Of a stretch of 64,000 bases of DNA, positions 7,571-49,709 are shown piece after piece. Position 1 is the stretch's first letter; every line of letters begins with the position of its first letter. A program made the position numbers and the translations under genes. The notes under the pieces are model-generated. The model was not told the origin of the DNA and ran no database searches. It was given only the letters and a program-made list of their open reading frames with translations. Source of the stretch: Rhodospirillum centenum SW (GTDB lineage: Bacteria; Pseudomonadota; Alphaproteobacteria; Azospirillales; Azospirillaceae); the NCBI RefSeq assembly GCF_000016185.1, contig NC_011420.2, positions 2,767,001 to 2,831,000 on the forward strand, written 5' to 3'.

Positions 7571-7780
7571 GCGGCCGGGGCCCGCCCACTCTGGCGCGGA
7601 AACCGCCGGGGGCGGAAGGGGGAGACACCGCCAGAGGGGGCATTCACCGCGCTTTCATGCAGGCGCCGTAGTCTCGCCGCTTTCGCCTGCCACCTGTGCC
7701 GGGCGGGGGGTTGCGGCAGCCGCGCCACAGTGTCGCCGGCATTTGCGGCCGAGGCTTCCGCCGGCACCGCCGCGACCCTA
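7571..7780. other. nfi / penicillin-binding protein divergent intergenic core
   Basis: No gene recognised. This is G/C-rich sequence between the two CGTTCAG arrays; both divergent promoters should lie here or overlap the arrays. I see no credible -10/-35 pair. Confidence 0.35.
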
Positions 7781-7810
7781 TCGTTCAGGGTCGTTCAGCA
7801 TCGTTCAGCC
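7781..7810 (+). repeat. Three tandem 10-bp repeats upstream of the PBP1A gene
   Basis: TCGTTCAGGG, TCGTTCAGCA and TCGTTCAGCC abut exactly, so the shared TCGTTCAG recurs every 10 bp, about one helical turn. That spacing would place copies on one DNA face. They point toward the PBP1A gene, mirroring the nfi-side repeats. Candidate operator. Confidence 0.7.
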
Positions 7811-7865
7811 CTGGCGCGACCCGGCGCCGCCCCGGACCCCGCCCGCACGGAACCCGACCCCGCCC

Positions 7866-9860
7866 GTGAGCACACCCGTCCCCCCCCTCCGCCCGCCGCC
7901 CCGCCCCGCCCCGCCGCCGCCGCAACGGCCGGTGCCGCGCCGGGCCGGACGGCGCTGGCCCGGCATCCTGCTGCGGACCGCCGTGGTGGCGTCGATCTGG
8001 GTCTTCATGGCCGGCCTGTTCGCCGTGGCCTGGTTCGCGCACGACCTGCCCGACGTGAGCGGGGCCGTGCAGGTGGAACGGCGGCCGGCGGTCACCCTGG
8101 TGGCGGCGGACGGATCGCCCTTCGCCCGCTTCGGTGACCTGCGCGGCGCCACGGTGGACGTGACGCAGCTTCCGCCGCATCTGGTCAATGCCGTGGTCGC
8201 CACCGAGGACCGGCGCTTCTGGAGCCATTTCGGGCTGGACCCGATCGGCATCGCCCGCGCCGCGGTGACCAACTACCGCGCCGGGCGGGTGGTGCAGGGC
8301 GGCTCGACGCTCACCCAGCAGCTCGCCAAGAACCTGTTCCTGACGCCGGACCAGACCCTGAAGCGCAAGGTGCAGGAGGCGCTGCTGGCCGTCTGGCTGG
8401 AGCGCCGCTACAGCAAGCAGGAGATCCTGACCGCCTATCTGAACCGGGTCTATCTGGGGGCCGGCACCTATGGCGTGGACGCCGCCGCCCGGACCTATTT
8501 CAACAAGCCGGCGACGGAACTGACGCTGCGCGAATCCGCCGTGATCGCCGGCCTGCTGAAGGCGCCGTCGCGCTACACCCCCGCCGCCAACCCCGACCGC
8601 GCCCTGGAGCGGGCGGAGGTGGTGCTGCGCGCCATGCTGGACGAGGGCTACATCAACGAGGCGGAGATGCGGGCGGCGCTGGACATTCCGCCGGTGCCGC
8701 GGCGCAAGCCGGGCAGCGAGGGCGAGGGCCGCTACTTCGCCGCCTGGGTGGCCGACCAGGTGGCCGCCTTCGTCGGTCCCGACCATGGCGATCTGGTCAT
8801 CTACACCTCCTTCGATCCGGCCATCCAGCGCGCCGCGGAAAGCCATGTGGCGGCCCTGCTGCGCGGTCCGGGGGCGGAGGCGCGGGTCGGGCAGGCGGCC
8901 GTGGTGGTGATGACGCCGGACGGCGCCGTGAAGGCCCTGGTGGGCGGCCGCGACTACGGCGAGAGCCAGTTCAACCGCGCCACCCAGGCCCTGCGCCAGC
9001 CCGGATCGGCCTTCAAGCCGGTGGTCTTCCTGTCGGCCCTGGAGATGGGCTGGACAGAGACCTCCACTGTGCTGGACGCGCCCTACCGCAAGGGCAAGTG
9101 GGCGCCGGAGAACTATGACGGCAAGTACCGCGGCGAGATCACCCTGCGCGACGCCCTGGCCCATTCGGTGAACACGGCGACCGTGCGCCTGCTGGAGGCG
9201 TCGGGCGTGGACAACGCCATCAGCGTGGCCCGCCGGCTGGGCCTGACCTCGACCATGCGGCGCGACCTGTCGCTGGCGCTGGGCACCAGCGAAGTGACCC
9301 TGCTGGAACTGACCGGCGCCTACGCCACCTTCGCCAACCGCGGCCGGGCCGTGATGCCCTATGCCATCCTGGAGATCCGCGACGCCAACGGCCAGCTCCT
9401 GTACCAGCGCCGCGGCTCCGGGGCGGGCTATGCCGTCTCCGGGCCGGAGGTGGCGGCGATGACCCGGCTGCTGCTGGCGCCGATCGCCTACGGCACGGGC
9501 GGCGCCGCCCGGCTGGACCGCATGGCCGCCGGCAAGACCGGCACGACGCAGGACTACCGCGACGCCTGGTTCGTCGGCTTCACCGCCGATCTGGTGGCCG
9601 GGGTCTGGATGGGCAACGACGACGGCGCGCCGATGAAGCGGATCACCGGCGGCACCCTGCCGGCGCGGCTCTGGCACGACGTCATGATGGCGGCCCATAC
9701 CGGGCTGCCGCCGCGCGACCTGCCGGGGCTGGACGGCGGGCCGGGCCGCGCCGTGCCGGAACCGCTGGTGGCGGAGCGCACGCCGGAGGAGGCGGTGGCC
9801 CCGTCCCCGCCCGCCAGTTCCATCGGCGAGCTTCTGGACCGGCTGACCGGCGGCCGCTGA
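7866..9860 (+). CDS. Penicillin-binding protein 1A family (bifunctional transglycosylase/transpeptidase)
   Basis: About 664 residues from the GTG at 7866; a TTG at 7743 would add 41 Pro/Arg-rich residues. A Pro-rich cytoplasmic tail precedes one membrane helix (LLRTAVVASIWVFMAGLFAV). The GT51 transglycosylase domain follows, with catalytic Glu about 114 in VVATEDRRFWSHFG and the motif GGSTLTQQLAKN. The transpeptidase domain has the SxxK nucleophile in PGSAFKPV (Ser about 381), SVN in AHSVNTATV, and KTGT in AAGKTGTTQDYRDAWFVG. It polymerises and cross-links peptidoglycan in the periplasm. All catalytic motifs are intact. No clear ribosome-binding site precedes either start, so the start is uncertain. 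Confidence 0.93.
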   Translation: MSTPVPPLRPPPRPAPPPPQRPVPRRAGRRWPGILLRTAVVASIWVFMAGLFAVAWFAHDLPDVSGAVQVERRPAVTLVAADGSPFARFGDLRGATVDVTQLPPHLVNAVVATEDRRFWSHFGLDPIGIARAAVTNYRAGRVVQGGSTLTQQLAKNLFLTPDQTLKRKVQEALLAVWLERRYSKQEILTAYLNRVYLGAGTYGVDAAARTYFNKPATELTLRESAVIAGLLKAPSRYTPAANPDRALERAEVVLRAMLDEGYINEAEMRAALDIPPVPRRKPGSEGEGRYFAAWVADQVAAFVGPDHGDLVIYTSFDPAIQRAAESHVAALLRGPGAEARVGQAAVVVMTPDGAVKALVGGRDYGESQFNRATQALRQPGSAFKPVVFLSALEMGWTETSTVLDAPYRKGKWAPENYDGKYRGEITLRDALAHSVNTATVRLLEASGVDNAISVARRLGLTSTMRRDLSLALGTSEVTLLELTGAYATFANRGRAVMPYAILEIRDANGQLLYQRRGSGAGYAVSGPEVAAMTRLLLAPIAYGTGGAARLDRMAAGKTGTTQDYRDAWFVGFTADLVAGVWMGNDDGAPMKRITGGTLPARLWHDVMMAAHTGLPPRDLPGLDGGPGRAVPEPLVAERTPEEAVAPSPPASSIGELLDRLTGGR

Positions 9861-9917: not shown

Positions 9918-11021
9918 TCAGACCGGCTGCAGTTCGGACAGGAACGGATAGTCCGTGTAGCCCTTCTCCCCGCCGCCGTAGAAGGTAGCAGGGTCGGCCG
10001 CGTTCAGCGGCGCATCCAGGCGGTAGCGTTCGACCAGATCGGGGTTGGCGATGAAGGGCACGCCGAAGGCGACCGCATCGGCCTGACCGTCCGCCAGGGC
10101 GCGCGTGGCCGTCGCCTTGTCGTAGCCGCCGTTGACGATGTAGGGACCCGTGAACGCCTGCCGGAGCTGGCGGGAGACGCGGGCGGTGCCCTTCGGGCTC
10201 ATCGGGTGGTCGTCGCGCAGCGGCTCGATCACATGCAGATAGGCCAGCCCGAAACGGTTCAGCGCCGCGGCGGCATGGCCGAAGGTGGCCGCCGGATCGG
10301 CGTCGGACATGCCGTTCACGGCATTGGTGGGGGAGAGGCGCACGCCCACCCGGTCGCCGCCCAGCACGTCCGTCACCGCGGCCGTCACCTCCAGCAGGAG
10401 GCGGGCGCGGTTCTCCACGCTGCCGCCATAGGCGTCGGTGCGGGCGTTGGAGCCGCTGCGCAGGAACTGGTCGATCAGGTAGCCGTTGGCGGCGTGGATC
10501 TCCACCCCGTCGAAGCCGGCCTCGCGGGCGCGGGCGGCGGCGGCGGCGAACTTCCCGACGATGCCGGGGATCTCCTCGATCTCCAGGGCGCGCGGGGTGG
10601 GGGCCTCCACCAGCCCCTGGTGGGTATAGAGCTTGATCCCGGGGCTGATGGCGCTGGGCGCCACCGGCAGGGCGCCGCCGGGCTGGTAGCTCTGGTGCGA
10701 GACGCGGCCGACATGCCAGAGCTGCACGACGATGCGGCCGCCCGCCTCGTGCACGGCGTCGGTGACGGCGCGCCAGCCGGCGACCTGCGCGTCGGTGTGG
10801 AGGCCGGGCGTGTCGGGATAGCCCTGGCCCTCGGGCGTGACCTGCGTCGCCTCCGCGATGATGAGGCCGGCCGTGGCGCGCTGCCGGTAGTAGGTCACGG
10901 CCAGCGGGTTCGGCACGTTGCCCGCGACGGCCCGGGAGCGGGTCAGCGGCGCCATCACCAGACGGTTGGGCAGGTCCAGCGCGCCCAGGCGCACGGGCGT
11001 GAACAGGGTGGTATCGCTCAT
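9918..11021 (-). CDS. Old Yellow Enzyme family alkene reductase (NADH:flavin oxidoreductase)
   Basis: 367 residues. The FMN-binding TIM barrel starts FTPVRLGALDLPNRLVMAPL. The pattern includes WHVGRVSH, FDGVEIHAANGYLIDQFLR, GSVENRARLLLEV, and the C-terminal phosphate site VAFGVPFIANPDLVERYRLD. The ANGYL tract and upstream His/Asn region match NemA-type enzymes that reduce N-ethylmaleimide, nitrate esters and other electrophiles. The ATG at 11019-11021 fits the family start. A perfect 12-bp palindrome of TetR type lies 72 bp upstream, which suggests induction by an electrophile-sensing repressor, but no such repressor gene is adjacent. Confidence 0.92.
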   Translation of the reverse strand: MSDTTLFTPVRLGALDLPNRLVMAPLTRSRAVAGNVPNPLAVTYYRQRATAGLIIAEATQVTPEGQGYPDTPGLHTDAQVAGWRAVTDAVHEAGGRIVVQLWHVGRVSHQSYQPGGALPVAPSAISPGIKLYTHQGLVEAPTPRALEIEEIPGIVGKFAAAAARAREAGFDGVEIHAANGYLIDQFLRSGSNARTDAYGGSVENRARLLLEVTAAVTDVLGGDRVGVRLSPTNAVNGMSDADPAATFGHAAAALNRFGLAYLHVIEPLRDDHPMSPKGTARVSRQLRQAFTGPYIVNGGYDKATATRALADGQADAVAFGVPFIANPDLVERYRLDAPLNAADPATFYGGGEKGYTDYPFLSELQPV

Positions 11022-38684: not shown

Positions 38685-39812
38685 TCAGGCGTCGTTGGCG
38701 ACGCGCTGGCGGGCGGACCGCTCGGCCTGGTCGGGGAACAGGCCGGCCAGCCCCTCCTGGCTGGCGGCGCAGAGGCCGCGCTCGGTGATGAAGCCGGTCA
38801 CCAGCCGGGCCGGGGTGACGTCGAAGCCGTAATTGGCGACGGGAGAGCCGTCGGCGACGATGCGCACCCGCTCGATGCGGCCGTCGGCGGTGCGGCCGGT
38901 GATCTCCGTCACCTCCTCGTCGCCGCGGGTCTCGATCGGGATGCCGTGGACCCCGTCCTCCAGCAGCCAGTCGATGGTGCTGCCGGGCAGGGCCACCCAG
39001 AAGGGCACGCCGGTGTCGTGCGCCGCCAGCGCCTTCAGATAGGTGCCGATCTTGTTCGCCACGTCGCCGCGGGCGGTGACGCGGTCGGTGCCGACGACCG
39101 CCAGATCCACCAGGCCGTGCTGCATCAGGTGGCCGCCGGTGTTGTCCGCCACCACCGTGTGCGGCACGCCGTGGTGCCCCAGTTCCCAGGCGGTGAGGAA
39201 GGCGCCCTGGCTGCGCGGGCGCGTCTCGTCCACCCAGACATGCACCGGAATGCCGGCATCGTGCGCCATGTAGATCGGCGCCGTGGCCGTGCCCCAGTCC
39301 ACCGTGGCCAGCCAGCCGGCGTTGCAGTGGGTCAGCAGGTTGACCGGGCGGTGCGGGTTGCGCTTGTGCAGGCCGCGGATCAGCTCCATCCCGTGGCGGC
39401 CGATGGCGCGGCAGACCTCCACATCCTCCTCGGCGATGGCGGCGGCTTCGGCATAGGCGCGGCGCACCCGGTCGGCCGGGGGCGTGACGGACAGCACCTC
39501 GCGCAGGCGGGCAAGCCCCCAGCGCAGGTTCACCGCCGTGGGCCGGGTCGCCAGGAGACGGTCGTGCGCCGCCTCCACCGCCCGGTCGGTCGCATCCGCG
39601 CGCATGGCCAGCGCCATGCCGTAGGCGGCCGTGACCCCGATCAGGGGGGCGCCGCGCACCGCCATGGTGGTGATCGCCTCGGCCGCCTCCTCCAGCGAGG
39701 TCAGGCGGCGGGTGCGGAATTCGAAGGGGAGTGCCGTCTGGTCGATGATCCCGACGGACCAGCCGTCCGCGTCAACCCAGATGGTGCGGCGATGGATGCC
39801 ATCGACCTTCAT
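38685..39812 (-). CDS. mtnA: S-methyl-5-thioribose-1-phosphate isomerase
   Basis: 375 residues. It isomerises MTR-1-P to MTRu-1-P in methylthioadenosine salvage. Motifs are [19 protein letters not shown], the catalytic-Cys region [30 protein letters not shown] and the Asp-bearing [20 protein letters not shown]. The length is that of the family. No other mtn genes are adjacent; in Rhodospirillum relatives MtnA also feeds an MTA shunt. The ATG at 39810-39812 is well supported. Confidence 0.95.
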
Positions 39813-39920
39813 GCGCAGGCCCTTCCCGGCAACGGAGCAAGGGCCGCAGTTTCGGCAGGCCGGCCGCCGGGATCAAGTCCCCGCATCGGCCGGCCGGCCT
39901 GCACCGGCGCGCTGCGACGA

Positions 39921-40559
39921 TCAGGCCCGGCGGCGGAACTGCACGTCCTGGAAACGCTGGCCGGAGCGCAGGAACATCGCCTCGACCTGATCCTCCGGCA
40001 TCAGCCAGCCGCGCGGCCGGCCCGGCGTGGCCCGGGGCTCGTCGTCCTCGTCCTCGTCGTCCAGCGCGTCCAGGGCGGGACGGCGCAGGACGGCAGGCCG
40101 GGCCTTCTCCGCGGCGTGCAGCGCAGCACCGGGCCGCGGCGCCGGACGGCCGGCGGAGTGCAGGGCCGGGGCCGGGCGGGCGGGCGGCAGCACCGTGGCT
40201 GACGGGGCCAGGGCGGCGGACACCGGAGCGGCGGCGCCCAGGCCGGTGGCGCCCAGACCGGTGGCGCCGGGGGCCGCGCCATTCCCGGGAAGGTCCGCCG
40301 CGGAAACGGCGTCGTCGCGGTACTCGGGAGCACGGAACTCGGGGCCGTGGACTTCAGGGGCACGGGCTTCGGGACTGCGGCGCACGCCCATGGAGGGCGG
40401 CCGCAGATCAAGCGCCCGGATGCGCCCGATCACCTCGCTGATGCCGAGGCCGAGCTGGCGGGAGATCTCGATGGTGTTGGCGCCGCCCAGGTAAAGGGTG
40501 CGGATCAGGGCGTCGTTCGCCGGGACCGGCGGGGGGGCGTCGAGCGTTTCCGTCATCAT
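39921..40559 (-). CDS. Helix-turn-helix protein with long low-complexity linker
   Basis: 212 residues. Residues about 15-55 (ALIRTLYLGGANTIEISRQL, then GLGISEVIGRIRALDL) look like a homeodomain-type HTH, with some resemblance to the GcrA N-terminus. A Pro/Ala-rich linker with short repeats (GATGLGATGLGAAA) spans residues 60-165. An acidic block (ALDDEDEDDE) and a conserved-looking tail (WLMPEDQVEAMFLRSGQRFQ) follow. A CtrA-like box sits 55 bp upstream. Possible DNA-binding regulator; identity unknown. Confidence 0.65.
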   Translation of the reverse strand: MMTETLDAPPPVPANDALIRTLYLGGANTIEISRQLGLGISEVIGRIRALDLRPPSMGVRRSPEARAPEVHGPEFRAPEYRDDAVSAADLPGNGAAPGATGLGATGLGAAAPVSAALAPSATVLPPARPAPALHSAGRPAPRPGAALHAAEKARPAVLRRPALDALDDEDEDDEPRATPGRPRGWLMPEDQVEAMFLRSGQRFQDVQFRRRA

Positions 40560-40613
40560 GGTCGGGCGCGCCTCTGGCTGTGACCGTATCGCCCTTCTTT
40601 GTCACCCTTCCAT

Positions 40614-40630
40614 GGTTAACGTCGGGTCAA
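40614..40630 (-). promoter_or_regulatory. CtrA-box-like site before the HTH gene
   Basis: Read on the minus strand, TTGACCCGACGTTAACC: TTGA, seven bases, TTAACC; one mismatch from the CtrA consensus. It ends 55 bp upstream of the HTH gene start on the same strand. Confidence 0.5.
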
Positions 40631-40662
40631 TGCACCGAAGAAAAATGCGGGTTGCGACGATC

Positions 40663-40696
40663 TTAAGTACAGGTCGGCCTTAAGTACAGGTCGGCG
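40663..40696. repeat. 17-bp tandem duplication downstream of the exporter gene
   Basis: TTAAGTACAGGTCGGC plus C or G, twice without a gap, at 40663-40679 and 40680-40696. It lies 16 bp past the exporter stop codon, at the edge of the peptide cluster. It may be a slippage product or a trace of a past rearrangement. Confidence 0.75.
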
Positions 40697-40711
40697 CTTC
40701 CGGACCGTCGG

Positions 40712-42865
40712 TCACGCGCACGTCATGGCGAGGGGCTCCACCGGCCTGTCCTCGGGCACGGCCTCCAGGATGCGGCCGTCCTGGAGCAGCAGCAGCCGGT
40801 CGGCGGCGGCGATGGTTTCGGGCCGGTGGGCGATGACGATGCGGGTGATGCCGAGCTGGCGGAGATGGGCGTTCACCTCCCGCTCCTTCGACACGTCCAG
40901 GTGGCTGGTGCCTTCGTCCATGAACAGGATGCGCGGGCGGCGGTAGAGGGCACGCGCGAGCAACACCCGCTGGCGCTGCCCGCCGGACAGCGCCGCCCCC
41001 ATGTCGCCCACCAGGGTATTGTAGTTCATCGGCATCGCCATGATCTCCGCATCGATCCCGGCGATCGCCGCGCACTGGCGCATCCAGGCGAGATCGGGGG
41101 CGGGATCGAAGAAGGTGATGGTCTCCGCCAGCGTGCCGGACAGCAGGCTGTCGTCCTGCATCACCACCCCGACCTGCGCGCGGAAGCTGGCGGGGCCGAC
41201 ATGGTCCAGCGGCACCCCGTCCACCAGCACCTCCCCCGCCGTGGGCCGGAACAGGCCCAGCATCACCTTGAGCAGCGTCGTCTTGCCCCCGCCGGAAGGC
41301 CCCGTGATGGCGACGAACTCCCCCGGCGCCACCTCCAGGTCCACCCCGGCGATCACGTCGGGTTCCGTCTCGGCATAGCGGTAGGCGACGCCCTTGCAGG
41401 CGATGCAGCCCTGGAGCGGCCGGGTGATCAACGGTTCCGCGGCATCGCGCTCCAGGCCCCGCTCGCGCTCGGCCAGCGCGATGTCGCTGATGCGGTCCAG
41501 ATGCAGGTCCAGCATGCGGTACTGGATGGCGGTCTCCAGCAGCTTGGTCGCCTTGTCCAGGAACTGCTGCTTGTAGGCCATGAAGGCGAACAGCATGCCG
41601 ACCGTCAGGTCGCCGTCCATCGCCAGACGCGCGCCGGCATAGACGACCAGGACGTTCTCCACCCCGTAGATCAGGCCGTTCGCAAGGGTGAAGCCGATGT
41701 TCAGACGGCCGAGCCGGACGCCACGGGTGACCGTCTCGGCGAAGCGGTCATGCCAGACGCCTTCGCGCTCCGTCTCATGACCGAAGATCTTGATGGTCTG
41801 CATCGCCCGCGCGGTTTCGATGAAGCTGGTCTGCTCCTTGGCGCTTGCGGCGATCACCTCCTCCTCGCGCTGGCGCAGGAACCGGAACGCGGCGATGCGG
41901 ACAGCGGCATAGAGCACCAGCGCCACCAGCACGATGCCGGCCAGCAGGGGCGAATAGAGAAAGATCACGACCAGGGTCAGGACGGCCATCACCCCGTCCA
42001 CCAGGGCCGCCACCAGCCCGTCGGTGATCAGGTCCCGGATCGGCCGGGTCGAACCGAAGCGGCTGACCAGATCGCCGATGTGGCGTTTCTCGAACCAGTC
42101 CAGCGGCAGCCGGAGCATGTGGTGGAAAAGATTGACCACCATCTGGTGGTTGACGACGGATCCCAGGATCAGCAGCACCGTGGAGCGCAGCCACTGCGCC
42201 CCGAGATTGATCAGGGTGAAGAGACCGAAGCCGACGGCCAGGGCGATCATCAGGCCCCCGTCGCCCTTCATCACCGCTTCGTCCACGGCAAGCTGCATGT
42301 AGAAGGGGCTGGCCAGCACGAAGAGCTGTAGCACGACCGACAGGATCAGCGCCTGGGCCAGGGCGCGCTTCATGCCGTCCACCCGGCCGACCAGGGAGAA
42401 GAGGCCCAGCGTCGAGCGCGCCGCCTTCTTCTCGAAGCCGGTCGTGGGGGTGAGTTCCAGGGCCACGCCGGTGAAGTGCTGCGACAGCTCCGCCATGCGC
42501 ATCCGCACGACGCCCTTGGCCGGGTCGTGGATGGTCACCCGGTCGCCCGTCACCGCCGCCAGCACGACGAAATGGTTCATGTCCCAGTGCAGGATGGCCG
42601 GCAGCTTGAGATCCCTGAGGTGCGCCGGCTCCAGCCGCAGCCCCCGGGGCGCCAGCCCCAGCCTCTGCCCCATCAGGGCGATGGTCTTCATCGTCGCGCC
42701 CTTGAGCGAGACGGAGAAGCGCCGGCGCAGGGCGGACAGGTCGGTGGCGTGACCATGATGGCCCAGCACCATGGCCAGGCAGGCCAGCCCGCATTCCATG
42801 GCTTCGGCCTGGAGAACCAGCGGGGTGGCCTGTCTGTACCCGAAAGCCGTGACCGCAAGACTCAC
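40712..42865 (-). CDS. Peptidase-C39-containing ABC exporter (bacteriocin/microcin type)
   Basis: 717 residues from the GTG at 42863-42865 (AGCGGAGAACGGAC before it). The N-terminal C39 peptidase has Gln19, catalytic Cys25 (AEAMECGLACLAMVL), His98 (LHWDMNHFVVLAAV) and Asp114 (VTIHDPAKGVV), all intact. Six membrane helices follow (about residues 165-430). The ATPase has Walker A GPSGGGKTTLLK, signature LSGGQRQRVLLARAL and Walker B RILFMDEGTSHLD. Such exporters, like CvaB, cut double-glycine leaders and pump the core peptide out with a fusion protein and TolC. Four candidate leader peptides and the fusion protein lie in the same cluster. Confidence 0.95.
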   Translation of the reverse strand: MSLAVTAFGYRQATPLVLQAEAMECGLACLAMVLGHHGHATDLSALRRRFSVSLKGATMKTIALMGQRLGLAPRGLRLEPAHLRDLKLPAILHWDMNHFVVLAAVTGDRVTIHDPAKGVVRMRMAELSQHFTGVALELTPTTGFEKKAARSTLGLFSLVGRVDGMKRALAQALILSVVLQLFVLASPFYMQLAVDEAVMKGDGGLMIALAVGFGLFTLINLGAQWLRSTVLLILGSVVNHQMVVNLFHHMLRLPLDWFEKRHIGDLVSRFGSTRPIRDLITDGLVAALVDGVMAVLTLVVIFLYSPLLAGIVLVALVLYAAVRIAAFRFLRQREEEVIAASAKEQTSFIETARAMQTIKIFGHETEREGVWHDRFAETVTRGVRLGRLNIGFTLANGLIYGVENVLVVYAGARLAMDGDLTVGMLFAFMAYKQQFLDKATKLLETAIQYRMLDLHLDRISDIALAERERGLERDAAEPLITRPLQGCIACKGVAYRYAETEPDVIAGVDLEVAPGEFVAITGPSGGGKTTLLKVMLGLFRPTAGEVLVDGVPLDHVGPASFRAQVGVVMQDDSLLSGTLAETITFFDPAPDLAWMRQCAAIAGIDAEIMAMPMNYNTLVGDMGAALSGGQRQRVLLARALYRRPRILFMDEGTSHLDVSKEREVNAHLRQLGITRIVIAHRPETIAAADRLLLLQDGRILEAVPEDRPVEPLAMTCA

Positions 42866-43007
42866 GTCCGTTCTCCGCTCAATACCGTATCGGCCGGCAC
42901 TCAGGCACAAGCAGAGCAGACGGCCGCCGGGGCGGCCGTCTGCCGAAGTGGATCGTCAATGTCCCTGTGGATGGACGGATGACGAGGTCCTGTTCACATC
43001 AGGACAT

Positions 43008-43160
43008 TCACTTCATGATCTTCAGGACCGCGAGCGCCGTACCGGCGCCGGCGAAGAACCCCTTGACGAAATAGGCAGCGACAAGGGGAACCGCGCCACC
43101 GGCGACCTGATCCAGGTCATCCAGTTCGACGATCTGCACAGAGGTATTCTGCGGAGCCAT
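43008..43160 (-). CDS. Double-glycine leader peptide A (bacteriocin precursor)
   Basis: 50 residues. The leader MAPQNTSVQIVELDDLDQVA ends GG at residue 22; ELDDLDQVAGG fits the class II leader consensus cut by C39 peptidases. The predicted core is 28 residues, starting AVPLVAAYFVKGFFAGAG and ending LKIMK: hydrophobic, cationic, with one GxxxG (GFFAG). It starts after CGGGAGATGTGTC. Its stop is about 143 bp before the exporter start, on the same strand. Core activity is inferred. Confidence 0.85.
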   Translation of the reverse strand: MAPQNTSVQIVELDDLDQVAGGAVPLVAAYFVKGFFAGAGTALAVLKIMK

Positions 43161-43175
43161 GACACATCTCCCGTT

Positions 43176-43280
43176 TCAGTTCATGATCAGAAGGGTCAGC
43201 AGCGCCACCAGAGCGCCGGAGACCACACCGTAGACGAAGAACTTTGCAGGAAGTTCTTCGTCGTTCCGTTCCGTGATCAT
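43176..43280 (-). CDS. 34-residue single-helix peptide B
   Basis: It starts MITERNDEELPAKFFVYGVV and ends LLTLLIMN. It has no double-glycine leader, one membrane-length helix and one GxxxG (GVVSG). The start lies 4 bp after the stop of peptide C, so translation is probably coupled; peptide A begins 15 bp after its stop. It could be an immunity or accessory peptide, or a leaderless third component. Its charged N-terminus and helix length resemble small immunity or holin-like peptides. Confidence 0.65.
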   Translation of the reverse strand: MITERNDEELPAKFFVYGVVSGALVALLTLLIMN

Positions 43281-43284
43281 GGCT

Positions 43285-43473
43285 TCACTTGATGAGATAG
43301 TAGACGCCGACCACCAGAGCCGCCCCCAGGACGGCGCCGGACCCGAAGGCTGCGATCAGCACGAGGGGCTTGGGGCCGCCGCTCACATGATCGAGGTCGT
43401 CGAACGAGAGTTCGGTCATGACGGCCCCCTCGCCGAAAGCGGCCGCATCAGAGCAGATCAACGCAGAAGACAT
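43285..43473 (-). CDS. Double-glycine leader peptide C (bacteriocin precursor)
   Basis: 62 residues from an ATG with a strong ribosome-binding site (CTGGAGGTTTC). A shorter start at 43419 (MTELSFDDLD) is possible. The leader ends TELSFDDLDHVSGG at residue 33. The predicted core is 29 residues, starting PKPLVLIAAFGSGAVLGAAL and ending GVYYLIK, with GxxxG (GAVLG). It resembles peptide A's core in length, hydrophobicity and basic end, as expected for a two-peptide bacteriocin. First gene of the C-B-A run that leads to the exporter. Confidence 0.85.
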   Translation of the reverse strand: MSSALICSDAAAFGEGAVMTELSFDDLDHVSGGPKPLVLIAAFGSGAVLGAALVVGVYYLIK

Positions 43474-43823
43474 GAAACCTCCAGGTTCTGGTTGCCGCAT
43501 ACCACGCTCCAGGCGCCCGACATCCCGGGTGTGCGTCCGGATCGTGAGCCCATCGTCGGCTTGTTAATGGGCAAATGAATATGACTCCGGACAAATCCTC
43601 CCGATCCCACCGCAGACGAATAAATCAGGTATAGCTGCAAGCGGATCACCATTTCATGAGCACAAGCAATTCACACAGACACACAAGTGCATACAGCACA
43701 AGACTTTACTGCGATAGGCGACCATAGTGACCCGAAATCCAAATCTCTATACTCGGCATCAGGTATTTATTTCGACTGGCACCCTGTTATCCCGTATGGG
43801 GCAGGCTCTGGTCGTTGTACGCC
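43474..43823. other. Intergenic region upstream of peptides C-B-A
   Basis: 350 bp, clearly more A/T-rich than the genome. It should hold the promoter for the C-B-A-exporter run. No gene supported. Short open frames on both strands lack ribosome-binding sites and leader motifs. The 92-bp element seen elsewhere in the cluster is not present here. Confidence 0.4.
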
Positions 43824-44537
43824 CTATCCCTCGTCGCACCACAAGCCGGTCGTCCTCAGAAAGCGCTCAATTGTCTTCAGATAATATATCGGCAGCAAGC
43901 AGCTTATCAGTATGATCGCCTGTGCTGTGCTTGTATTCTCAAGATTTCCGCTGAGCCAGAGCGTTATGAATATTCCTGACGCGGAGTGAATGACGAGAAG
44001 CAGGGGGAGCAGGGTTCCCCCCAACAGAGTCAGACCCGGAACACTCTCCCGTCCACGCCCGTCATAGACACAGCTCCCGCCGCCGAGAATGGGAAAGAGC
44101 CTGTGTGTCGGGGATTGCGTGCGAGCGACAGCGAGCGAGTGCAGGTAGATCATCGGGGTAAAAACCCCCGAAAAAAAGCAGATGCCGATCACATATTCCT
44201 TCATGGGGTCATAGAGTAAGCTCAACAGAAACAGGGCAATGCATGAAAAATGGAATACGTATGTAATTTTTAATTTGAAGTTCCCCCCAAGGGCGTTGGC
44301 AAGCCATAAAAAAACAGCAAAAGCGTGATTTTGACGCCCGTATTCCCGATTAACTTCTGACATGTATTTTTTAAAACTCAAGAATGGAACCAGACTTCCC
44401 CCGATCAGCATCCCTCCGATGATGGACGTCGATGGATTGGCCGAGTTCAATGTGGCAAGCAGAATTGCCAGGCCGAGCAGGGCCGGTGACAAGGCGATCA
44501 ATACCGCGATTTCCTGCGAGATAAATACTCTATTCAT
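43824..44537 (-). CDS. Polytopic membrane protein of the bacteriocin cluster
   Basis: 237 residues, about six helices (for example AVLIALSPALLGLAILLATL, FSCIALFLLSLLY and LLPLLLVIHSASGIFITLWL), unrecognised. It is A/T-rich, like the precursor genes and unlike the genome. The start ATG is at 44535-44537. A small Cys-rich ORF ends 15 bp upstream. It could be an immunity or accessory transport protein. Nothing in its sequence identifies it as an enzyme. It is 350 bp from the C-B-A run. Confidence 0.7.
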   Translation of the reverse strand: MNRVFISQEIAVLIALSPALLGLAILLATLNSANPSTSIIGGMLIGGSLVPFLSFKKYMSEVNREYGRQNHAFAVFLWLANALGGNFKLKITYVFHFSCIALFLLSLLYDPMKEYVIGICFFSGVFTPMIYLHSLAVARTQSPTHRLFPILGGGSCVYDGRGRESVPGLTLLGGTLLPLLLVIHSASGIFITLWLSGNLENTSTAQAIILISCLLPIYYLKTIERFLRTTGLWCDEG

Positions 44538-44552
44538 ATTTAGCTCACTATC

Positions 44553-44738
44553 TTAGAGCCATCGGAGAGTCTGAACGCGTCCCTCCCGATGGGCTTTAAT
44601 GATGGTGGGCTCGGAACCGGCCCCGACAAACACTCCTGCACACGATGGCTCATCGACCTCGCAGCCTATATTGCCCCCACAGATCCGGCACCTTTCCCTG
44701 AGCGACATAAACCTTGAGGCTTTTATCGCAGCGAACAT
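44553..44738 (-). CDS. Small four-cysteine peptide
   Basis: 61 residues (or 51 from an internal ATG at 44708, MSLRERCRICGG). Four Cys in a C-x2-C-x5-C-x6-C pattern suggest disulfides or a metal site. It ends HREGRVQTLRWL. There is no leader of the ELDDLD-GG type, although GG occurs inside. It overlaps the end of the first 92-bp element and lies 15 bp before the membrane-protein gene. It may be a cluster peptide or an accidental frame. Confidence 0.35.
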   Translation of the reverse strand: MFAAIKASRFMSLRERCRICGGNIGCEVDEPSCAGVFVGAGSEPTIIKAHREGRVQTLRWL

Positions 44739-44825
44739 CAACCTTACGGAATTTCGGATCGATCGCAATACCCAATATGGGTGGCATCAACGCAGGTTCT
44801 GGACGATTTTAATTGCATCCAGCCG
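44734..44825 (-). repeat. 92-bp cluster element, copy 1
   Basis: Ungapped match to 49116-49207 (76 of 92 bases identical by my count). Conserved blocks are AACATCAACCTTACG, GATCGCAATACC, GGGTGG and CGATTTTAAT. Copy 1 includes an inverted repeat ACCCA-TAT-TGGGT (minus: ACCCATATTGGGT). It lies upstream of the 4-Cys peptide and membrane-protein genes. Probable shared promoter/operator. Confidence 0.7.
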
Positions 44826-44862
44826 GGGGAGGGCGGGCAAGGACCCGGTCATACCGCCGCGC

Positions 44863-45929
44863 CTAAGCATTGACACATGGGAGCCACGGATAGCTTGTGA
44901 GGGAGCGTAGACGTTCTGGTGTGGCGGTGAGGGCGTTCCAGGCGTCGCAGCAGGCTTGGACGACGGCGTCGTAGTCGTCCAGGATCTGGTGGGACAGAAA
45001 GCGCTCGCGCAGGTACAGCCAGACGCGCTCAACTGGGTTGAGTTCGGGGCTGTAGGGCGGGAGCGGGACCAGCGTGATGTTGTCCGGGACGACCAGCGCC
45101 CGCGCTCCGTGCCAGCCGGCCTGATCGAGCACGAGCACCGCCTGGACGTCCGGTTCCAGGCTCCGGGAGAAGCCGTCCAGGAACAGGCTCATGGCGGTGG
45201 TGGAGACGGTCGGCATCACCAGCGCGAAGTCGGCGCCGCTGGCCGGGCAGACGGCGGCGTAGAGCCAGGCCGAGGTGAAGCGCTTGTCGCACAGCCCAAG
45301 CGGACGCTGCCCGCGCTCCCACCAGCGATGCGCGGTGCGGCCCTTCTGGCCGATGCGGGCCTCATCCTGGAACCAGAGCTGGAGGCGGCGCTCCGGATGC
45401 GCGGCACCTGCGGCCTTCAGGGCTTCGCGCAGCCCCTTTTTTGGAAGGCGGCCTGGGCCTTGGCGTCGGACTGCGGATGGCGGGGCCGCGTCTTCTGCTT
45501 CGACAGGTTGAGCCGGCGCACGATGCGCGACAGGCTGGCCGGATGCAGCGTCTTGGCGAAGCGTTCGGCGATCACCTCGCACAGGATCGGCAGGGTCCAT
45601 TCCACGCAGCCATGCCGCTTGGGATCGGGGCCAGCGAGGATGATGGCCTTGAGCGTCGCCTGCTCGCCTTCGCTCAGCCACTCCGGCCGGCCGGGCAGCG
45701 GGCGGTCGTAGAGCCCGGCTACGCCTTCCGCGTTGTAGCGCACAACCGCGTCGCGCAGGGCCTGGCGGTCCATGCCGGCCAGCCGCGCCGCTTCCGCCCG
45801 GCTCACCCCATCGAGCGCATGGGCGATGGCGAACATCCGCGCCGCCACCCGCCCTTTGCTCTCCCGCCGCGCCAGGGCACGCAATTCGCTGGCGCTCAGG
45901 TCTTCCCGGATCGGCAACGCCGCTGGCAT
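44863..45929 (-). CDS. IS630-family transposase, two overlapping frames (programmed frameshift)
   Basis: The first frame (45417-45929) starts MPAALPIREDLSASELRALA and carries the HTH region (RAEAARLAGMDRQALRDAVV). The second frame, running to 44863, carries the DDE domain: LWFQDEARIG, AVLVLDQAGWH and SPELNPVERVWLYLRERFL, so all three acidic residues are intact. The frames join at a run of six A (minus strand, 45437-45442), the usual slippery site in this family. The element could be active. A sequencing error at the homopolymer is the alternative. Confidence 0.85.
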
Positions 45930-45937
45930 TCGCTCCT
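44863..45937 (-). mobile_element. IS630-family insertion sequence
   Basis: Defined by its two-frame transposase; the terminal inverted repeats could not be fixed by eye, so the ends are approximate. The right end is bounded by a 16-bp palindrome (CCCCATCGCGATGGGG, 45938-45953). Its G/C content matches the host rather than the A/T-rich cluster, so it inserted from a genome-typical source. It separates the two halves of the bacteriocin cluster. Confidence 0.8.
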
Positions 45938-45989
45938 CCCCATCGCGATGGGGAATCGAATCACGGATTGCCGGCCTTGGGAATCCCTC

Positions 45990-46437
45990 TCAGTGAGTCA
46001 GCGGCTCCGCTCGCCGGAACCGCTCAAGCCGAAGGACGGGCGGCCTCGGCTGGACAACCAGACGGCTTTGACCGGCATCCTGTTCGTGTTGCGCTCCGGC
46101 ATTCCCTTGGACCTGCCGTCGGTGGAGATGGGGTGCGGTTCGGGCATGACCTGTCGGCGCCGGCTGCACGAATGGGCATCAAGGGGCTACGACTTCGCCC
46201 ACTGCCGGCAAGCGCTGTGCCGGCGGGGGATCGTGCGGCGCATCGCCAGCGCGGTATCGAGAACAGCGAGCGCCTGGGACGGCACCGATGGGTGGTCGAG
46301 CGTACGCTTGCCTGGCTCGCCCGCTTTCGCCGCATCGCCGTCCGCTCCGAGCGACGCGCCGACATCTTCACCGCCTTCCACCATATCGCCGCCGGCCTTA
46401 TCTGCTGGCGTTTCGTCCAGAAATGGTTCTGGTAGGC
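45990..46437 (+). pseudogene. IS5-family transposase remnant
   Basis: The N-terminal part (GRPRLDNQTALTGILFVLRS, then MGCGSGMTCRRRLHEW) and C-terminal part (GIENSERLGRHRWVVERTLA, then FRRIAVRSERRADIFTAFHH) of an IS5/IS427-type transposase lie in different frames. The catalytic centre is missing, so it is an internal deletion plus frameshift. It is directly next to the IS630 element and cannot transpose itself. Confidence 0.8.
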
Positions 46438-46461
46438 GCTCTTAGTCGATCGCCTGCGATA

Positions 46462-46647
46462 TCACGGGTGTCTATTCCTAAACAGCCAGAACAAGCACAG
46501 TATAAAAACAAATATGCTCCCCATTCCGGCAATCAGGGAAAGCGTGTCTTCGTGCTCAAAAAAACGACGCAGATGAACGTATCCAAAAAAAGGTTGTGCA
46601 ATAGTCATTGAAATGATGAGCAAATCCATTCCTGTTTTATTTCGCAT
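46462..46647 (-). CDS. Small two-helix membrane protein (candidate immunity for peptide D)
   Basis: 61 residues starting MRNKTGMDLLIISMTIAQPF after CCGGAGACAAAAT, a good ribosome-binding site. Two membrane segments flank a charged loop (HLRRFFEHEDTLS) and the end is FWLFRNRHP. It lies 65 bp after the stop of peptide D on the same strand. Bacteriocin immunity genes are typically small membrane proteins just behind their precursor. The assignment is by position. Confidence 0.65.
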   Translation of the reverse strand: MRNKTGMDLLIISMTIAQPFFGYVHLRRFFEHEDTLSLIAGMGSIFVFILCLFWLFRNRHP

Positions 46648-46712
46648 ATTTTGTCTCCGGTTGTAATTTATTGAAAATTCTTGGCATGTTTTTGCATGCC
46701 CAGAACTTCTCA

Positions 46713-46913
46713 CTATCGGGTATAACACGACACAAATGTGCCGTAGGCAGTAAAACCAAAAGATATCCATCCGACGGGACCACTCACTCCTGCGACAAGG
46801 GCCAAGCTCATCATGCCAAAACCGCCCATACAAGCCCCAGCATCCCACATATCTCCACCCGCGCCATGGTCGAGATCATTCAGATCAATCATAAAGGGCT
46901 TACTCTTATTCAC
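46713..46913 (-). CDS. Double-glycine leader peptide D (bacteriocin precursor)
   Basis: 66 residues from a GTG; an ATG seven codons in (MIDLNDLDHGAGG) is the alternative. There is no strong ribosome-binding site for either. The leader ends DLNDLDHGAGG at residue 20. The predicted 46-residue core starts DMWDAGACMGGFGMMSLALV, is Gly-rich and amphipathic, and ends FVSCYTR. Its two Cys (core positions 8 and 43) could form one long-range disulfide, as in some class II microcins. A small membrane protein gene follows. Confidence 0.75.
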   Translation of the reverse strand: MNKSKPFMIDLNDLDHGAGGDMWDAGACMGGFGMMSLALVAGVSGPVGWISFGFTAYGTFVSCYTR

Positions 46914-46991
46914 TTCGCAGTCAAGAACCGTCCCCGCATGATCAAGGATCAGTAAGTTTACTGTTGGGCGCTTGACATCAATGGTAACACA

Positions 46992-47327
46992 TCACGATGA
47001 AACAACCATATTCTTAAAAACAAACACAATCAAGCCAGAAACTATAAATATGCCGGCATCTTCGATCGTATATTCATTTTTCTCAATTAACTTGTTTTTG
47101 GGACCAAGCCTATTAATGTTCTCGCGCCAGCCGTCGGGAAACACAATCAAAGAAAATGGCAGGAGAGAGAATATTATGATAAATGCGGAAAAATAGACGC
47201 CAGGACCCAAAGGTTCTGAAGCGAAAAATCTGCCGCTGATGTACACCATAAAGCATACAGGAAACGACACCGCCAGCGAATGGGTTGTTATCTTCCAAAC
47301 TTTCTCATAAAAATGTTCTTTATTCAT
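46992..47327 (-). CDS. Small three-helix membrane protein (candidate immunity for peptide E)
   Basis: 111 residues starting MNKEHFYEKVWKITTHSLAV, with helices at about 15-32, 43-63 and 90-107 (IFIVSGLIVFVFKNM). It is A/T-rich and unrecognised. It begins 60 bp after peptide E's stop and ends 78 bp before peptide D, so it sits between two precursors as immunity genes do. The function is inferred from position only. Confidence 0.65.
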   Translation of the reverse strand: MNKEHFYEKVWKITTHSLAVSFPVCFMVYISGRFFASEPLGPGVYFSAFIIIFSLLPFSLIVFPDGWRENINRLGPKNKLIEKNEYTIEDAGIFIVSGLIVFVFKNMVVSS

Positions 47328-47387
47328 TTTTCCGCACTCAAAAAAGCAGGCACCATTGCACCATGAGGCACAATGGCACCTCAGTTA

Positions 47388-47642
47388 TCATGAATCCATC
47401 AAGAACATTGCGACCTCATAAAGACCCCACCCGACGCCGACGGCAGCACCGACAGCACCACCGAAGGCAGCACCCACGACCGCGCGTCCGGCTGCACGGC
47501 CCGCAGCCTTGGCGAACTCTCGCTTGAACAGAGACCAGTTATCAGATCCGCCATGGACACCGCACATGTCATCCAGTGTTAGCTCGATTATTTCCATGTT
47601 CGGCATGAAAGATGAACCATGGCAAGAAACCATTGTAGTCAT
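47388..47642 (-). CDS. Double-glycine leader peptide E (bacteriocin precursor)
   Basis: 84 residues from the ATG at 47640-47642, 8 bp behind GGGGAG; an ATG two codons earlier is too close to it. The leader ends MEIIELTLDDMCGVHGG at residue 32. The predicted 52-residue core starts SDNWSLFKREFAKAAGRAAG (basic helix), then a Gly/Ala-rich stretch (AVVGAAFGGAVGAAVGVGWG) with several GxxxG, ending FLMDS. This pattern resembles colicin-V-like class II microcins. Confidence 0.82.
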   Translation of the reverse strand: MTTMVSCHGSSFMPNMEIIELTLDDMCGVHGGSDNWSLFKREFAKAAGRAAGRAVVGAAFGGAVGAAVGVGWGLYEVAMFLMDS

Positions 47643-47706
47643 GTTCATTCTCCCCAGCTAAATAAATACGATAAGCGGATTGGGTCTACACCCCGATCCA
47701 CTATGT

Positions 47707-47731
47707 CCCCACCAGCCCTGCGCTGGTGGGG
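47707..47731. terminator. Stem-loop between fusion-protein gene and peptide E
   Basis: Perfect 10-bp stem CCCCACCAGC / GCTGGTGGGG with a 5-base loop, no T-tract. It lies 70 bp after the fusion-protein stop and before peptide E. It may lower read-through or protect the mRNA end so that precursor and transporter levels differ. Confidence 0.55.
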
Positions 47732-47800
47732 GCTCCTTCTCCAGAGGCGGGCAAAAGGAACACACGAATCCATCCGCCTGCAAAGCCCCCGGCCCGGTCC

Positions 47801-49039
47801 TCACATCCGCCCCCGCGCACTCATCAGGGGCTCCAGCAGCCATTCCAGCAGGCTCCGCTCCTCCAGGACGATATCGGCCGTCACCGTCATGTCCGCTTGC
47901 AGGGGGACCTGCCTGCCGAAGGCATCCACCGTCGCCCGGTCCAGGGTCACGGCCACGCGGTAGACGGGCTCCTGGGCCCGCACCGGGCCGATGATCTCGT
48001 CCGGGGCCAGCACGGTTTCCGAGACGTCCGCCACCACCCCGCCATAGGCACCGAAGCGCTGGAACGGGAAGGCGTCGTACATCAGCCGCACCCGCTGGCC
48101 CGTATCCACGAAGCCGATGGCGCGGGAGGGAACGAACAGCTCCGCCTGCAACGCCGCCGCCTCGGGCACCAGGGTCAGCACGGGTTTCTGCGGGTCCACC
48201 CGCTGACCGGGCGCCGCCTGGAGTGCCGTCACCCGGCCCGCCGCCGGTGCGCGGATCACCTGCGCGCCCTGGGCCGCCACCTCCGCCTCGCGCTGGCGCA
48301 GATCGGCCAGCGAGGAGCGCAGACGGGCCAGACGGTCGGCCGTTTCGGCGGGAAGCTGGGCGCGCTGGACCCGGGTCTGCGCGATCTCCGCCTTCGTGGC
48401 CGTGATCTGCTGGTCGAGGACGGCGAGGTTCTGGCGCTGGCTGAGCCACGCCTCCTCCCGCGCCCGGTACTCGGCCTCCGAGACGTAGCCCTTGGCCCTC
48501 AGGTCGGACAGCGCCTTCAGGCGCTCTCCCGTCACCGCCGCGCGCTCGACCTGCAACCGGCGCTGTTCGGAAAGCGCCACCAGTTCCGCCTCCAGACCGG
48601 TGATCCGCGCGGCGACACGCTCGACCTCCGAGGCGCTGCGCGCTTCCTCCGCGGCGATCTGCTCGGCGAGGAACTCGGCCTGCTGTGCCAGCGACCGGCG
48701 CAGCGCGGCGTCCAGCGTGCTCCCGTCCTCAAGGGCATGCCGCGTGTCCAGGACGAACAGGGCGTCACCGGCGGCGACCCGGTCGCCGTTGGCGACCATG
48801 ACCGATGCGAGCGTCCCGGCGCGCACGGGCACCACCCGCAGCGCCCCGGAGGCCGGAGCGAGAAAGCCCGTGACCGTCTCCTTACGCGCATAACCGGCCG
48901 TCGCGGCGAAGGCGAGGGCAAGGCCGACCGACCCCGCCAGGAACGCCGTCAGAACCGGCCAGGCGACAGGCGTCAACCCCAGCGGCAGGCTGGTGCGCTG
49001 ACCCGCGAGGGCGGGAATCTGACGGAACTCTATCGCCAC
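47801..49039 (-). CDS. HlyD/CvaA-type membrane-fusion protein
   Basis: 412 residues from a GTG behind GATGAGGGCATC. A short cytoplasmic tail leads to one helix (PVLTAFLAGSVGLALAFAAT), then the periplasmic part: lipoyl half (VVPVRAGTLASVMVANGDRV), a long coiled coil (residues about 110-255), second lipoyl half (APAAGRVTALQAAPGQRVDP) and a beta-barrel (FVPSRAIGFVDTGQRVRLMY). It matches the adaptor that links a C39-type exporter to TolC in microcin V export. Start of the cluster's left-reading run. Confidence 0.93.
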   Translation of the reverse strand: MAIEFRQIPALAGQRTSLPLGLTPVAWPVLTAFLAGSVGLALAFAATAGYARKETVTGFLAPASGALRVVPVRAGTLASVMVANGDRVAAGDALFVLDTRHALEDGSTLDAALRRSLAQQAEFLAEQIAAEEARSASEVERVAARITGLEAELVALSEQRRLQVERAAVTGERLKALSDLRAKGYVSEAEYRAREEAWLSQRQNLAVLDQQITATKAEIAQTRVQRAQLPAETADRLARLRSSLADLRQREAEVAAQGAQVIRAPAAGRVTALQAAPGQRVDPQKPVLTLVPEAAALQAELFVPSRAIGFVDTGQRVRLMYDAFPFQRFGAYGGVVADVSETVLAPDEIIGPVRAQEPVYRVAVTLDRATVDAFGRQVPLQADMTVTADIVLEERSLLEWLLEPLMSARGRM

Positions 49040-49469
49040 GATGCCCTCATCGACCTTGCCGATCCCTGCTCGATGCCTGACACACGACAGAACCCTTGAG
49101 GGTCATGTCTCCTGCAACATCAACCTTACGAAATTGCGGATTGATCGCAATACCTAATAAGGGTGGTATTGACGCCGGCTCGGAGCGATTTTAATGGCAT
49201 GCAACCGTGAGGCGGACCGGACCGGGGCATCCGCAGCAGCCTGGGGTGGAAACACGAGGGAACGGCAGCGGCGGGCGGGCAGCGGCAGGCGCGCAGCGAT
49301 GGAATGGCTGCGGACCAGCACCGGGGAGAGGCGTCTTCAGGGAGAGGGGGAACGGCGCAAGCGTCGTCAGGCAGCCGTATCGCAACCGCAGCAAGGGCAG
49401 CCGGGGGGCGCTGATCGGGAGGGCTATGAGGGCCGTGCGGCCCGGCGCAAGGGCAGGATCGTGAGGAAG
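49040..49469. other. Region between fusion-protein gene and tRNA-Asp
   Basis: About 430 bp. It contains copy 2 of the 92-bp element and otherwise Arg/Gly-rich accidental frames with no family match. The fusion-protein promoter should be here. No integrase gene and no copy of the tRNA 3' end were seen. Confidence 0.4.
49116..49207 (-). repeat. 92-bp cluster element, copy 2
   Basis: Ungapped partner of 44734-44825. It starts 77 bp upstream of the fusion-protein GTG on the same strand. The conserved dyad is here ACCCT-TAT-TAGGT, weaker than in copy 1. GGAGAC follows on the minus strand just downstream. Its position upstream of both transcription runs supports a shared control element. Confidence 0.7.
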
Positions 49470-49546
<77 letters not shown>

Positions 49547-49574
49547 GTACTACACTTCGTCCGACAGGAAAGAC

Positions 49575-49651
49575 TGGCGCGCCCGGGAAGATTCGAACTC
49601 CCAACCCTCAGATCCGTAGTCTGATGCTCTATCCAGTTGAGCTACGGGCGC
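49575..49651 (-). tRNA. tRNA-Arg (ACG)
   Basis: 77 nt including CCA. Acceptor GCGCCCG, anticodon stem TCAGA/TCTGA with loop CTACGGA (anticodon ACG, whose A34 is normally edited to inosine), T-arm with GTTCGAATC. First tRNA of the pair. Confidence 0.96.
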
Positions 49652-49709
49652 GCGGTCTTCGCAGTCTTTCGTCCCGGCCGCCGGAAGGTACCGGCCGCCG
49701 AGGCCGCTG

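Follow-up and report, generated by a model that had tools for sequence, protein, structure and literature searches.

A probable type I export cluster with a mixed cargo of class II bacteriocin-like peptides in Rhodospirillum centenum SW

Introduction

What does the C39 peptidase exporter of Rhodospirillum centenum SW carry out of the cell, and do the short genes beside it belong to a bacteriocin system? These questions are raised by a minus-strand locus at positions 40712-49039 of a 64,000-nucleotide stretch of this genome (contig NC_011420.2, positions 2,767,001 to 2,831,000; hereafter, the window). A first-pass annotation had read the locus as a class II microcin-like cluster in which the exporter and a CvaA-like fusion protein bracket four double-glycine (GG) peptides, here termed A, C, D and E. 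We find that the locus is best read as a type I export cluster for class II bacteriocin-like peptides with a mixed cargo, a reading to which we assign a probability of roughly 0.7.

For R. centenum SW, PMC2890560 describes a genome of 4,355,548 bp, with a GC content of 70.5% and 153 insertion sequences (IS); it mentions neither bacteriocin nor colicin. There is also no mention of bacteriocin in the main text of PMC3169532, or of colicin, cvaB, bacteriocin or HlyD in the main texts of PMC4681086 and PMC7117780. In the open-licence literature, we found nothing on two-peptide bacteriocins in Gram-negative alphaproteobacteria. To our knowledge, Gram-negative two-peptide bacteriocins are sparsely known. 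The view that multi-peptide alphaproteobacterial systems are little described was too strong: the Cdz system of Caulobacter is an experimentally studied case (PMC5380434). The locus is of an ordinary export-cluster kind with an unusual mixed cargo, in a lineage for which little such work was found.

Results

Exporter, adaptor and GG precursors

The exporter contains a C39 peptidase domain (PF03412, E 6.5e-36), an ABC membrane domain (PF00664) and an ABC-ATPase domain (PF00005), and it is the sole match to PF03412 in the genome. Its catalytic triad is intact (Cys40/His113/Asp129, or Cys25/His98/Asp114 when counted from the GTG at codon 16), which bears out the original assignment in the latter numbering, and its ATPase motifs are intact as well. 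The best solved relatives of the exporter are ABC-type bacteriocin transporters such as 4ry2, which has the same domain order and matches residues 31-717 (E 8.4e-95). We take 4ry2 to be PCAT1, presumably a Gram-positive exporter without an HlyD partner, whereas here an HlyD-type adaptor is encoded on the other side of the cluster, as had been proposed. This adaptor matches PF13437 (HlyD_3) above the cut-off (E 1.4e-17) and TIGR01843 below it (E 3.3e-48). TolC-type OEP proteins above the cut-off are encoded elsewhere in the genome, and as partners for the exporter they are candidates only. Some 13 kb past the end of the window lies a C39-like fragment of 28 residues whose frame is broken (G000:C1:2843992-2844075; L056:5993-6073); the GG pattern described below has no match in the 12 kb around it.

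The four precursor genes are present on the minus strand with the leaders that had been quoted for them. Our leader pattern requires a hydrophobic residue at -12, an acidic or polar residue at -8, a hydrophobic residue at -7, and GG. Six frames in the window match it: A, C, D and E, all within the 4.9 kb of 42901-47800, and two elsewhere. Against these four real precursors, 300 order-2 Markov sequences of 42901-47800 held 34 matches in total, or about 0.1 each (none in 269 sequences, one in 28 and two in 3). The pattern was composed with the cluster's leaders already known (a version one residue shorter missed 4 of 4), and thus the count speaks for clustering and not for independent discovery. 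D has the weakest leader of the four, because its gene starts with GTG and its residue at -4 is Gly, where A, C and E have Val. GGAGG lies upstream of C's ATG.

Relatives and other C39 loci

Of the family's 82 genomes, that of R. centenum counted, 55 have a peptidase-domain match (E 0.001); R. centenum is the only member of its genus in our genome set. Four relatives of the same family (Azospirillaceae), namely Rhodospirillaceae bacterium bin98 (L040), Niveispirillum sp. SYP-B3756 (L042) and two members of the latter's genus (L041 and L043), encode exporters 75-79% identical and adaptors 54-70% identical to those of the window. Common to all four is a one-strand order of adaptor, then GG peptides and membrane genes, then exporter, with 2, 2, 2 and 3 pattern-matching GG peptides in between. 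The gene order on which the first-pass annotation had staked its reading is therefore kept in relatives, and predicted export and leader cleavage are supported by this order together with the anatomy of the locus. In the nearest relative, L040, a CAAX-protease-type gene (PF02517) lies between the GG peptides and the exporter; this family occurs in bacteriocin loci. L043 carries an extra GG-peptide copy with a broken leader beside its intact copies (L043:4244-4444).

A wider comparison covered 156 C39 loci: 97 (102 minus the own-genome loci L056, L060 and L061 and the duplicates L062 and L063) plus 59 (60 minus the duplicate L215). None was counted twice; the only loci with a stretch in common are L169 and L170, which lie apart in a single genome. 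Adaptor and exporter are adjacent in 112 loci. In 12, they lie more than 500 bp apart with the adaptor upstream, and at least one same-strand GG peptide occupies the gap in 10 of these. The remainder have the adaptor downstream or overlapping (18), are incomplete (13) or have the two genes on opposite strands (1). We found no homologue in the 156 loci by tblastn (E 1e-3) with the eight small proteins of the window, which are A, C, D, E, B34 and the membrane proteins TM61, TM111 and TM237. Thus the order is conserved but the small proteins themselves lack tblastn homologues, as expected for fast-changing cargo. As judged from sequence, the cluster appears to combine a conserved exporter with a fast-changing cargo.

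Types of peptide in the cargo

Tandem GG pairs in L042, L043 and L184 fall, by eye, into two types. A profile built from the three second members, without the window, was searched against 1408 targets, 122 of them GG cores. A was the first non-seed match (E 0.0023), and C came third, behind the 4445 peptide of L043, at a non-significant E of 0.24. The profile of first members gave no significant non-seed match, with B34 second at E 0.7. When we aligned six precursors of our own choosing, A and C included, the GG and the core GxxxG were invariant; the profile of these six, run against the 82 family genomes, matched in the own genome only A and C, both of them profile members. The NCBIfam class IIb model TIGR03949 scores C at 20.4 and A at 14.4 bits, both below its cut-off of 21.5. 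An AlphaFold2 model of A contains one low-confidence helix at 24-49 (mean pLDDT 59.6), too weak for a fold search. Together, these comparisons suggest that A, and more weakly C, resemble the tandem-paired short GxxxG cores of relatives, like those of two-peptide bacteriocins.

Peptide E contains five GxxxG motifs compared with 1.3 in shuffles, a count reached by 0.24% of 5000 shuffles. It is also the best scorer with the curated models, at 17.1 bits for MccV (cut-off 27) and 20.3 bits for Bacteriocin_IIc (cut-off 27.1; E 5.6e-4). Its C-terminus, LYEVAMFLMDS, is mixed. tblastn of E against plasmids gave no match, and a search of PDB sequences gave nothing credible. The class II microcin label thus stands as far as GG leaders, C39 exporter and adaptor are concerned, but no peptide passes the MccV or Bacteriocin_IIc model: A and C look nearer to two-peptide GxxxG bacteriocins, and E looks nearer to the glycine-zipper Cdz proteins of Caulobacter.

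Comparison with known systems

PMC5380434 defines Cdz peptides by a length of 60-151 residues, a leader ending G[G/A/S] and a glycine zipper, and places transposases near many Cdz-like loci; transposases are found here too. Like CdzABCDI, the locus belongs to an alphaproteobacterium and combines a type I exporter and adaptor with more than one short, putatively secreted peptide, leaders ending G[G/A/S], a glycine zipper (here in E only) and small membrane immunity candidates. E (84 aa), D (66 aa) and C (62 aa) fall within the length range, whereas A (50 aa) does not. In C. crescentus the genes form divergent cdzAB and cdzCDI operons; here, all lie on one strand, and the cargo, with its four GG peptides, sits between adaptor and exporter. 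A and C are shorter, each with a single short helix, and the likeness to CdzC and CdzD is drawn from their published features. With the small proteins as queries, tblastn found no match in L127, a Cdz-like locus of Caulobacter vibrioides DSM 9893. There, a 79-aa membrane frame and two zipper peptides whose leaders end in SGA form a Cdz-like divergent trio (L127:5962-6659).

With class IIb bacteriocins such as carnobacteriocin XY (PMC6957408), the locus shares short GG-leader peptides with GxxxG cores, which in relatives form adjacent pairs. Both A and C have a GG leader and a core GxxxG, though singly not above composition. A further likeness is the tiny single-segment membrane gene, B34, beside the peptides, similar in size to CbnZ. 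The locus differs in its Gram-negative host, in a best TIGR03949 score (that of C) just below the cut-off, and in that B34 resembles a core itself, whereas the tiny gene at what we take to be the AbpIM position of pMP118 does not.

A C39 exporter with catalytic Cys, His and Asp is one criterion for class II microcins (PMC9746304). With microcin V (CvaAB; same source) and Moraxella McbABCI (PMC2761928), the locus shares the GG leader, such an exporter, an HlyD adaptor, TolC-type proteins encoded elsewhere and small hydrophobic immunity candidates. It departs from them in that no peptide passes the MccV model, and in having four precursors and extra membrane genes between adaptor and exporter.

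Gene content of the locus

From 49039 to 40712, the minus-strand order is HlyD-type adaptor, E, TM111, D, TM61, insertion sequences, the P2 repeat, TM237, C, B34, A and C39 exporter (Table 1). The single-strand run with membrane genes between the precursors stands as first described, except that 44849 to about 46450 is IS-derived and lies outside the cluster. B34 and TM61 had not been listed before; nor had the IS630 element and IS5-type remnant that split the locus, or the duplicated 123-bp leader. The reading frames of the adaptor, the exporter and all eight small genes are open. As had been noted, the precursor and membrane genes are AT-rich, with 39-64% GC compared with 68% in the exporter and 72.5% in the adaptor.

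TM111 has no Pfam, NCBIfam, PHROG or PADLOC match, TM61 has no PHROG or PADLOC match, and TM237 matches no family above the cut-off in Pfam, NCBIfam, PHROGs or PADLOC. Among 385 genomes of the class, TM237 found only its own copy and two weak matches (E 9.4e-6 and 1.5e-4). A 17-nt unit in two perfect tandem copies (40662-40695) lies immediately downstream of the exporter gene. Between E and TM111, a 15-pair stem with a T run (47348-47381, minus strand) possibly separates the E transcript from the rest; the terminator scan overall was at chance level.

Table 1. Features of the export locus and its flanks (window coordinates).
Feature	Position	Strand	Support
P1 repeat, possible promoter/leader region upstream of HlyD	49085..49207	-	78% identity to P2
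HlyD/CvaA-type membrane fusion protein (adaptor), 412 aa, GTG start	47801..49039	-	PF13437, TIGR01843
Peptide E, 84 aa, leader ..LTLDDMCGVHGG, 52-aa core with glycine zipper	47388..47642	-	leader pattern
TM111, 111-aa membrane protein, three hydrophobic segments, candidate immunity protein	46992..47327	-	hydropathy
Peptide D, 66 aa, GTG start, leader ..LNDLDHGAGG, 46-aa core, two Cys	46713..46913	-	leader pattern
TM61, 61-aa membrane protein, candidate immunity protein	46462..46647	-	reading frame, hydropathy
IS5-type transposase remnant (C-terminal DDE part), ends approximate	46018..46450	.	PF01609
IS630-family element, two overlapping frames, abuts IS5-type remnant	44849..46017	-	IS630 transposase model, DDE_3
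P2, second copy of P1 repeat, upstream of the cluster's downstream half	44703..44825	-	
TM237, 237-aa membrane protein, about six hydrophobic segments, candidate immunity/accessory protein	43824..44537	-	hydropathy
Peptide C, 62 aa, leader ..LSFDDLDHVSGG, 29-aa core with GxxxG	43285..43473	-	leader pattern
B34, leaderless 34-aa single-segment membrane peptide, putative paralogue of A core	43176..43280	-	ungapped alignment
Peptide A, 50 aa, leader ..VELDDLDQVAGG, 28-aa core with GxxxG	43008..43160	-	leader pattern
C39 peptidase-ABC exporter (CvaB/PCAT type), 732 aa (TTG) or 717 aa (GTG at 42865)	40712..42910	-	

B34, a leaderless neighbour of peptide A

B34 aligns with the core of A without gaps (12/24 identities), at a score reached by 0 of 2000 shuffles; its likeness to the core of C is not beyond chance (373 of 2000). 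Its GC content by codon position is 60/31/71%, and its GxxxG count is borderline against shuffles (5%). The likeness to A was noticed by eye first and tested later, and the score thresholds given below were fixed after the first matches.

We screened 98 loci (the 97 plus the window), 45 of them with GG cores of up to 60 aa, for leaderless neighbours that resemble a core. At a score of at least 42, there were three same-locus neighbours among 1171 pairs, compared with 12 among 66459 cross-locus pairs, 9 of which involve cores of L092 or L123. The three same-locus cases are the window, L067 (Janthinobacterium sp. TND4EL3) and L134 (Rheinheimera soli). For these loci and a second set of 59 taken together, with only membrane-like frames and hydrophobic cores considered, the counts at this score were 3/37 for the same locus and 0/3687 across loci; at the laxer score of 35, they were 4/37 and 17/3687. 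On its own, the second set, in which 25 loci have GG peptides, yielded no leaderless neighbour at a score of at least 42, with only 6 informative pairs. In genome G076, which shares its genus with L042, a leaderless homologue of the L042 core (18/35 identities, 51%) lies about 5.5 kb from the exporter locus L041; the profile that found it included the L042 core. G076 has no second match to this profile at E 0.1, the L041 locus carries other GG peptides, and the leaderless frame could be a relic. L134 has, near its GG peptides, three tiny membrane frames without leaders, of which two closely copy each other (L134:7313-7438, 7778-7999 and 10852-10965). From these alignments, leaderless core-like peptides occur in a few loci; any role for them we can only infer.

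The odds are about even that the likeness of B34 to A reflects a shared short small-residue helix, or that B34 is a dead leaderless duplicate of A with no role. The detection by eye, the absence of such neighbours from the later 59 loci and the possible relic state of the L041 relative are in keeping with this account, although those 59 loci held few informative pairs, and the shuffle test on A, the excess of same-locus over cross-locus matches in the restricted comparison and the leaderless homologue in the genus of L042 argue against it. We also considered, as a tentative and rather unlikely alternative, that B34 is a leaderless mimic of the core that confers self-immunity. Because it has no GG leader, B34 would stay in the producer's inner membrane, where its GxxxG helix would pair with A or C and block the pore. 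The same device would then have arisen or persisted in Janthinobacterium L067, in Rheinheimera L134 and in the orphan copy at L041. As far as we know, an antidote that is a decoy copy of the toxin itself would be without precedent in bacteriocin immunity. On pMP118 of Ligilactobacillus salivarius, the small gene next to the two-peptide bacteriocin shows no likeness to the bacteriocin cores, which speaks against a decoy and for a chance or vestigial likeness; we take this gene to be AbpIM, and its record names it an ABC transporter permease. Immunity proteins as small as B34 do exist, since CbnZ, the carnobacteriocin XY immunity protein, has 42 residues and a single transmembrane domain (PMC6957408). 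If B34 is an immunity peptide, immunity to helix-pairing bacteriocins would be directly testable through one 34-residue gene.

Expression during encystment

According to PMC4340629, R. centenum cvaB is up 5-fold late in encystment and cyst development. Because the genome encodes one C39 exporter, that of the window is the natural candidate for the published cvaB, and expression of the cluster is probably linked to late encystment. Transcription, to which the first-pass annotation had tied its claim, would thereby be supported in part by a published induction, for the exporter and not for the small genes.

This timing also fits an account in which the exported peptides serve in signalling, in biofilms or in the cyst coat, and not as weapons. 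Encystment is a phase when the cell surface is also remodelled, and GG-secreted small proteins have a biofilm role in Synechococcus elongatus (PMC4997328). A developmental signal or coat part should, however, be conserved, and the cargo is not detectably conserved among relatives whose exporters are 75-79% identical; moreover, the small membrane genes beside the GG peptides fit immunity. We consider a non-weapon role improbable.

Mobile elements, repeats and tRNAs

The IS630 element scores 92.2 bits with the transposase model (cut-off 100) and matches DDE_3. Four other near-full copies in the genome are 97-100% identical to it, indicating recent transposition. The IS5-type remnant, a name that is our own reading, shows in the plus-strand frame 45968-46435 a match to PF01609 (E 1.8e-5); at another place in the genome, about 170 bp of it recur with an 89% match. 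We rejected the frames in 44849-46450 as cluster genes, since transposase matches and genomic copies mark them as IS-derived.

These insertions raise the question of whether the cluster, broken up by the two elements, is in decay and has ceased to make functional peptides. The recent transposition, the foreign look of the AT-rich genes and the broken-frame C39 fragment about 13 kb beyond the window would agree with decay. Yet the insertion is intergenic, the frames of adaptor, exporter and all eight small genes are still open, and cvaB induction has been published (PMC4340629), so we give decay a low probability.

The repeats P1 and P2 are 78% identical over 123 bp, and at the search threshold they are the only two copies in the genome. 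Between P1 and the 300-bp stretches that precede the HlyD gene in the four relatives, no common sequence is longer than 13 bp. We found no support for P1/P2 as a wider regulon motif; that P2 serves the downstream half as a second promoter is a guess. A promoter scan found 5 promoter-like sites compared with 2.3 (sd 1.4) in shuffles, and a terminator scan found 5 terminator-like sites compared with 5.5.

The cluster is closely preceded, on its own strand, by tRNA-Asp (49470-49546) and tRNA-Arg (49575-49651), and starts about 260 bp from tRNA-Asp; Rfam gave nothing beyond these two tRNAs. A tRNA-borne island was considered but found no support: there is no direct repeat of the tRNA end (at least 16 bp, seed 12) in 39800-49700 and no tRNA in the 15-19 kb around the clusters of the four relatives, integrases not having been searched for. 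A neighbour-gene search for an empty site matched 4 of 20 genomes, own included, and its result was not used.

Discussion

Our results point to a type I export cluster whose cargo is of mixed, class II bacteriocin-like kinds. By analogy with known C39 exporters, the peptidase domain would cut A, C, D and E after GG, and the exporter, the adaptor and a TolC-type channel encoded elsewhere would pass the cores outside. To judge from their resemblances, A and C would be GxxxG membrane-helix peptides that may form a two-peptide pore, E a glycine-zipper peptide that may stay on the cell surface as CdzC does, and D a fourth cargo, possibly disulfide-bonded; the membrane genes, and perhaps B34, may give immunity. 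The AT-rich genes of the cargo probably arrived bit by bit. Later, IS elements would have broken up the row, so that P2 now stands as a possible second promoter before its downstream half.

Several observations weigh against a bacteriocin-like export cluster. No peptide scores above any curated bacteriocin or microcin cut-off in Pfam or NCBIfam, and the GxxxG counts of A, C and D are not above those of composition-matched shuffles. Part of the locus could have lost its expression through the IS insertions, and the link between the published cvaB and the exporter rests on its being the single C39 exporter, not on a locus tag. Finally, tblastn is weak for peptides this short, and the lack of homologues may overstate the divergence of the cargo; for A, the profile of second pair members does detect a relation.

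The locus points to a GxxxG peptide family in Azospirillum relatives and beyond. In R. centenum, this family would be tied to a genetically tractable, cyst-forming phototroph, with an exporter reported to be induced late in encystment.

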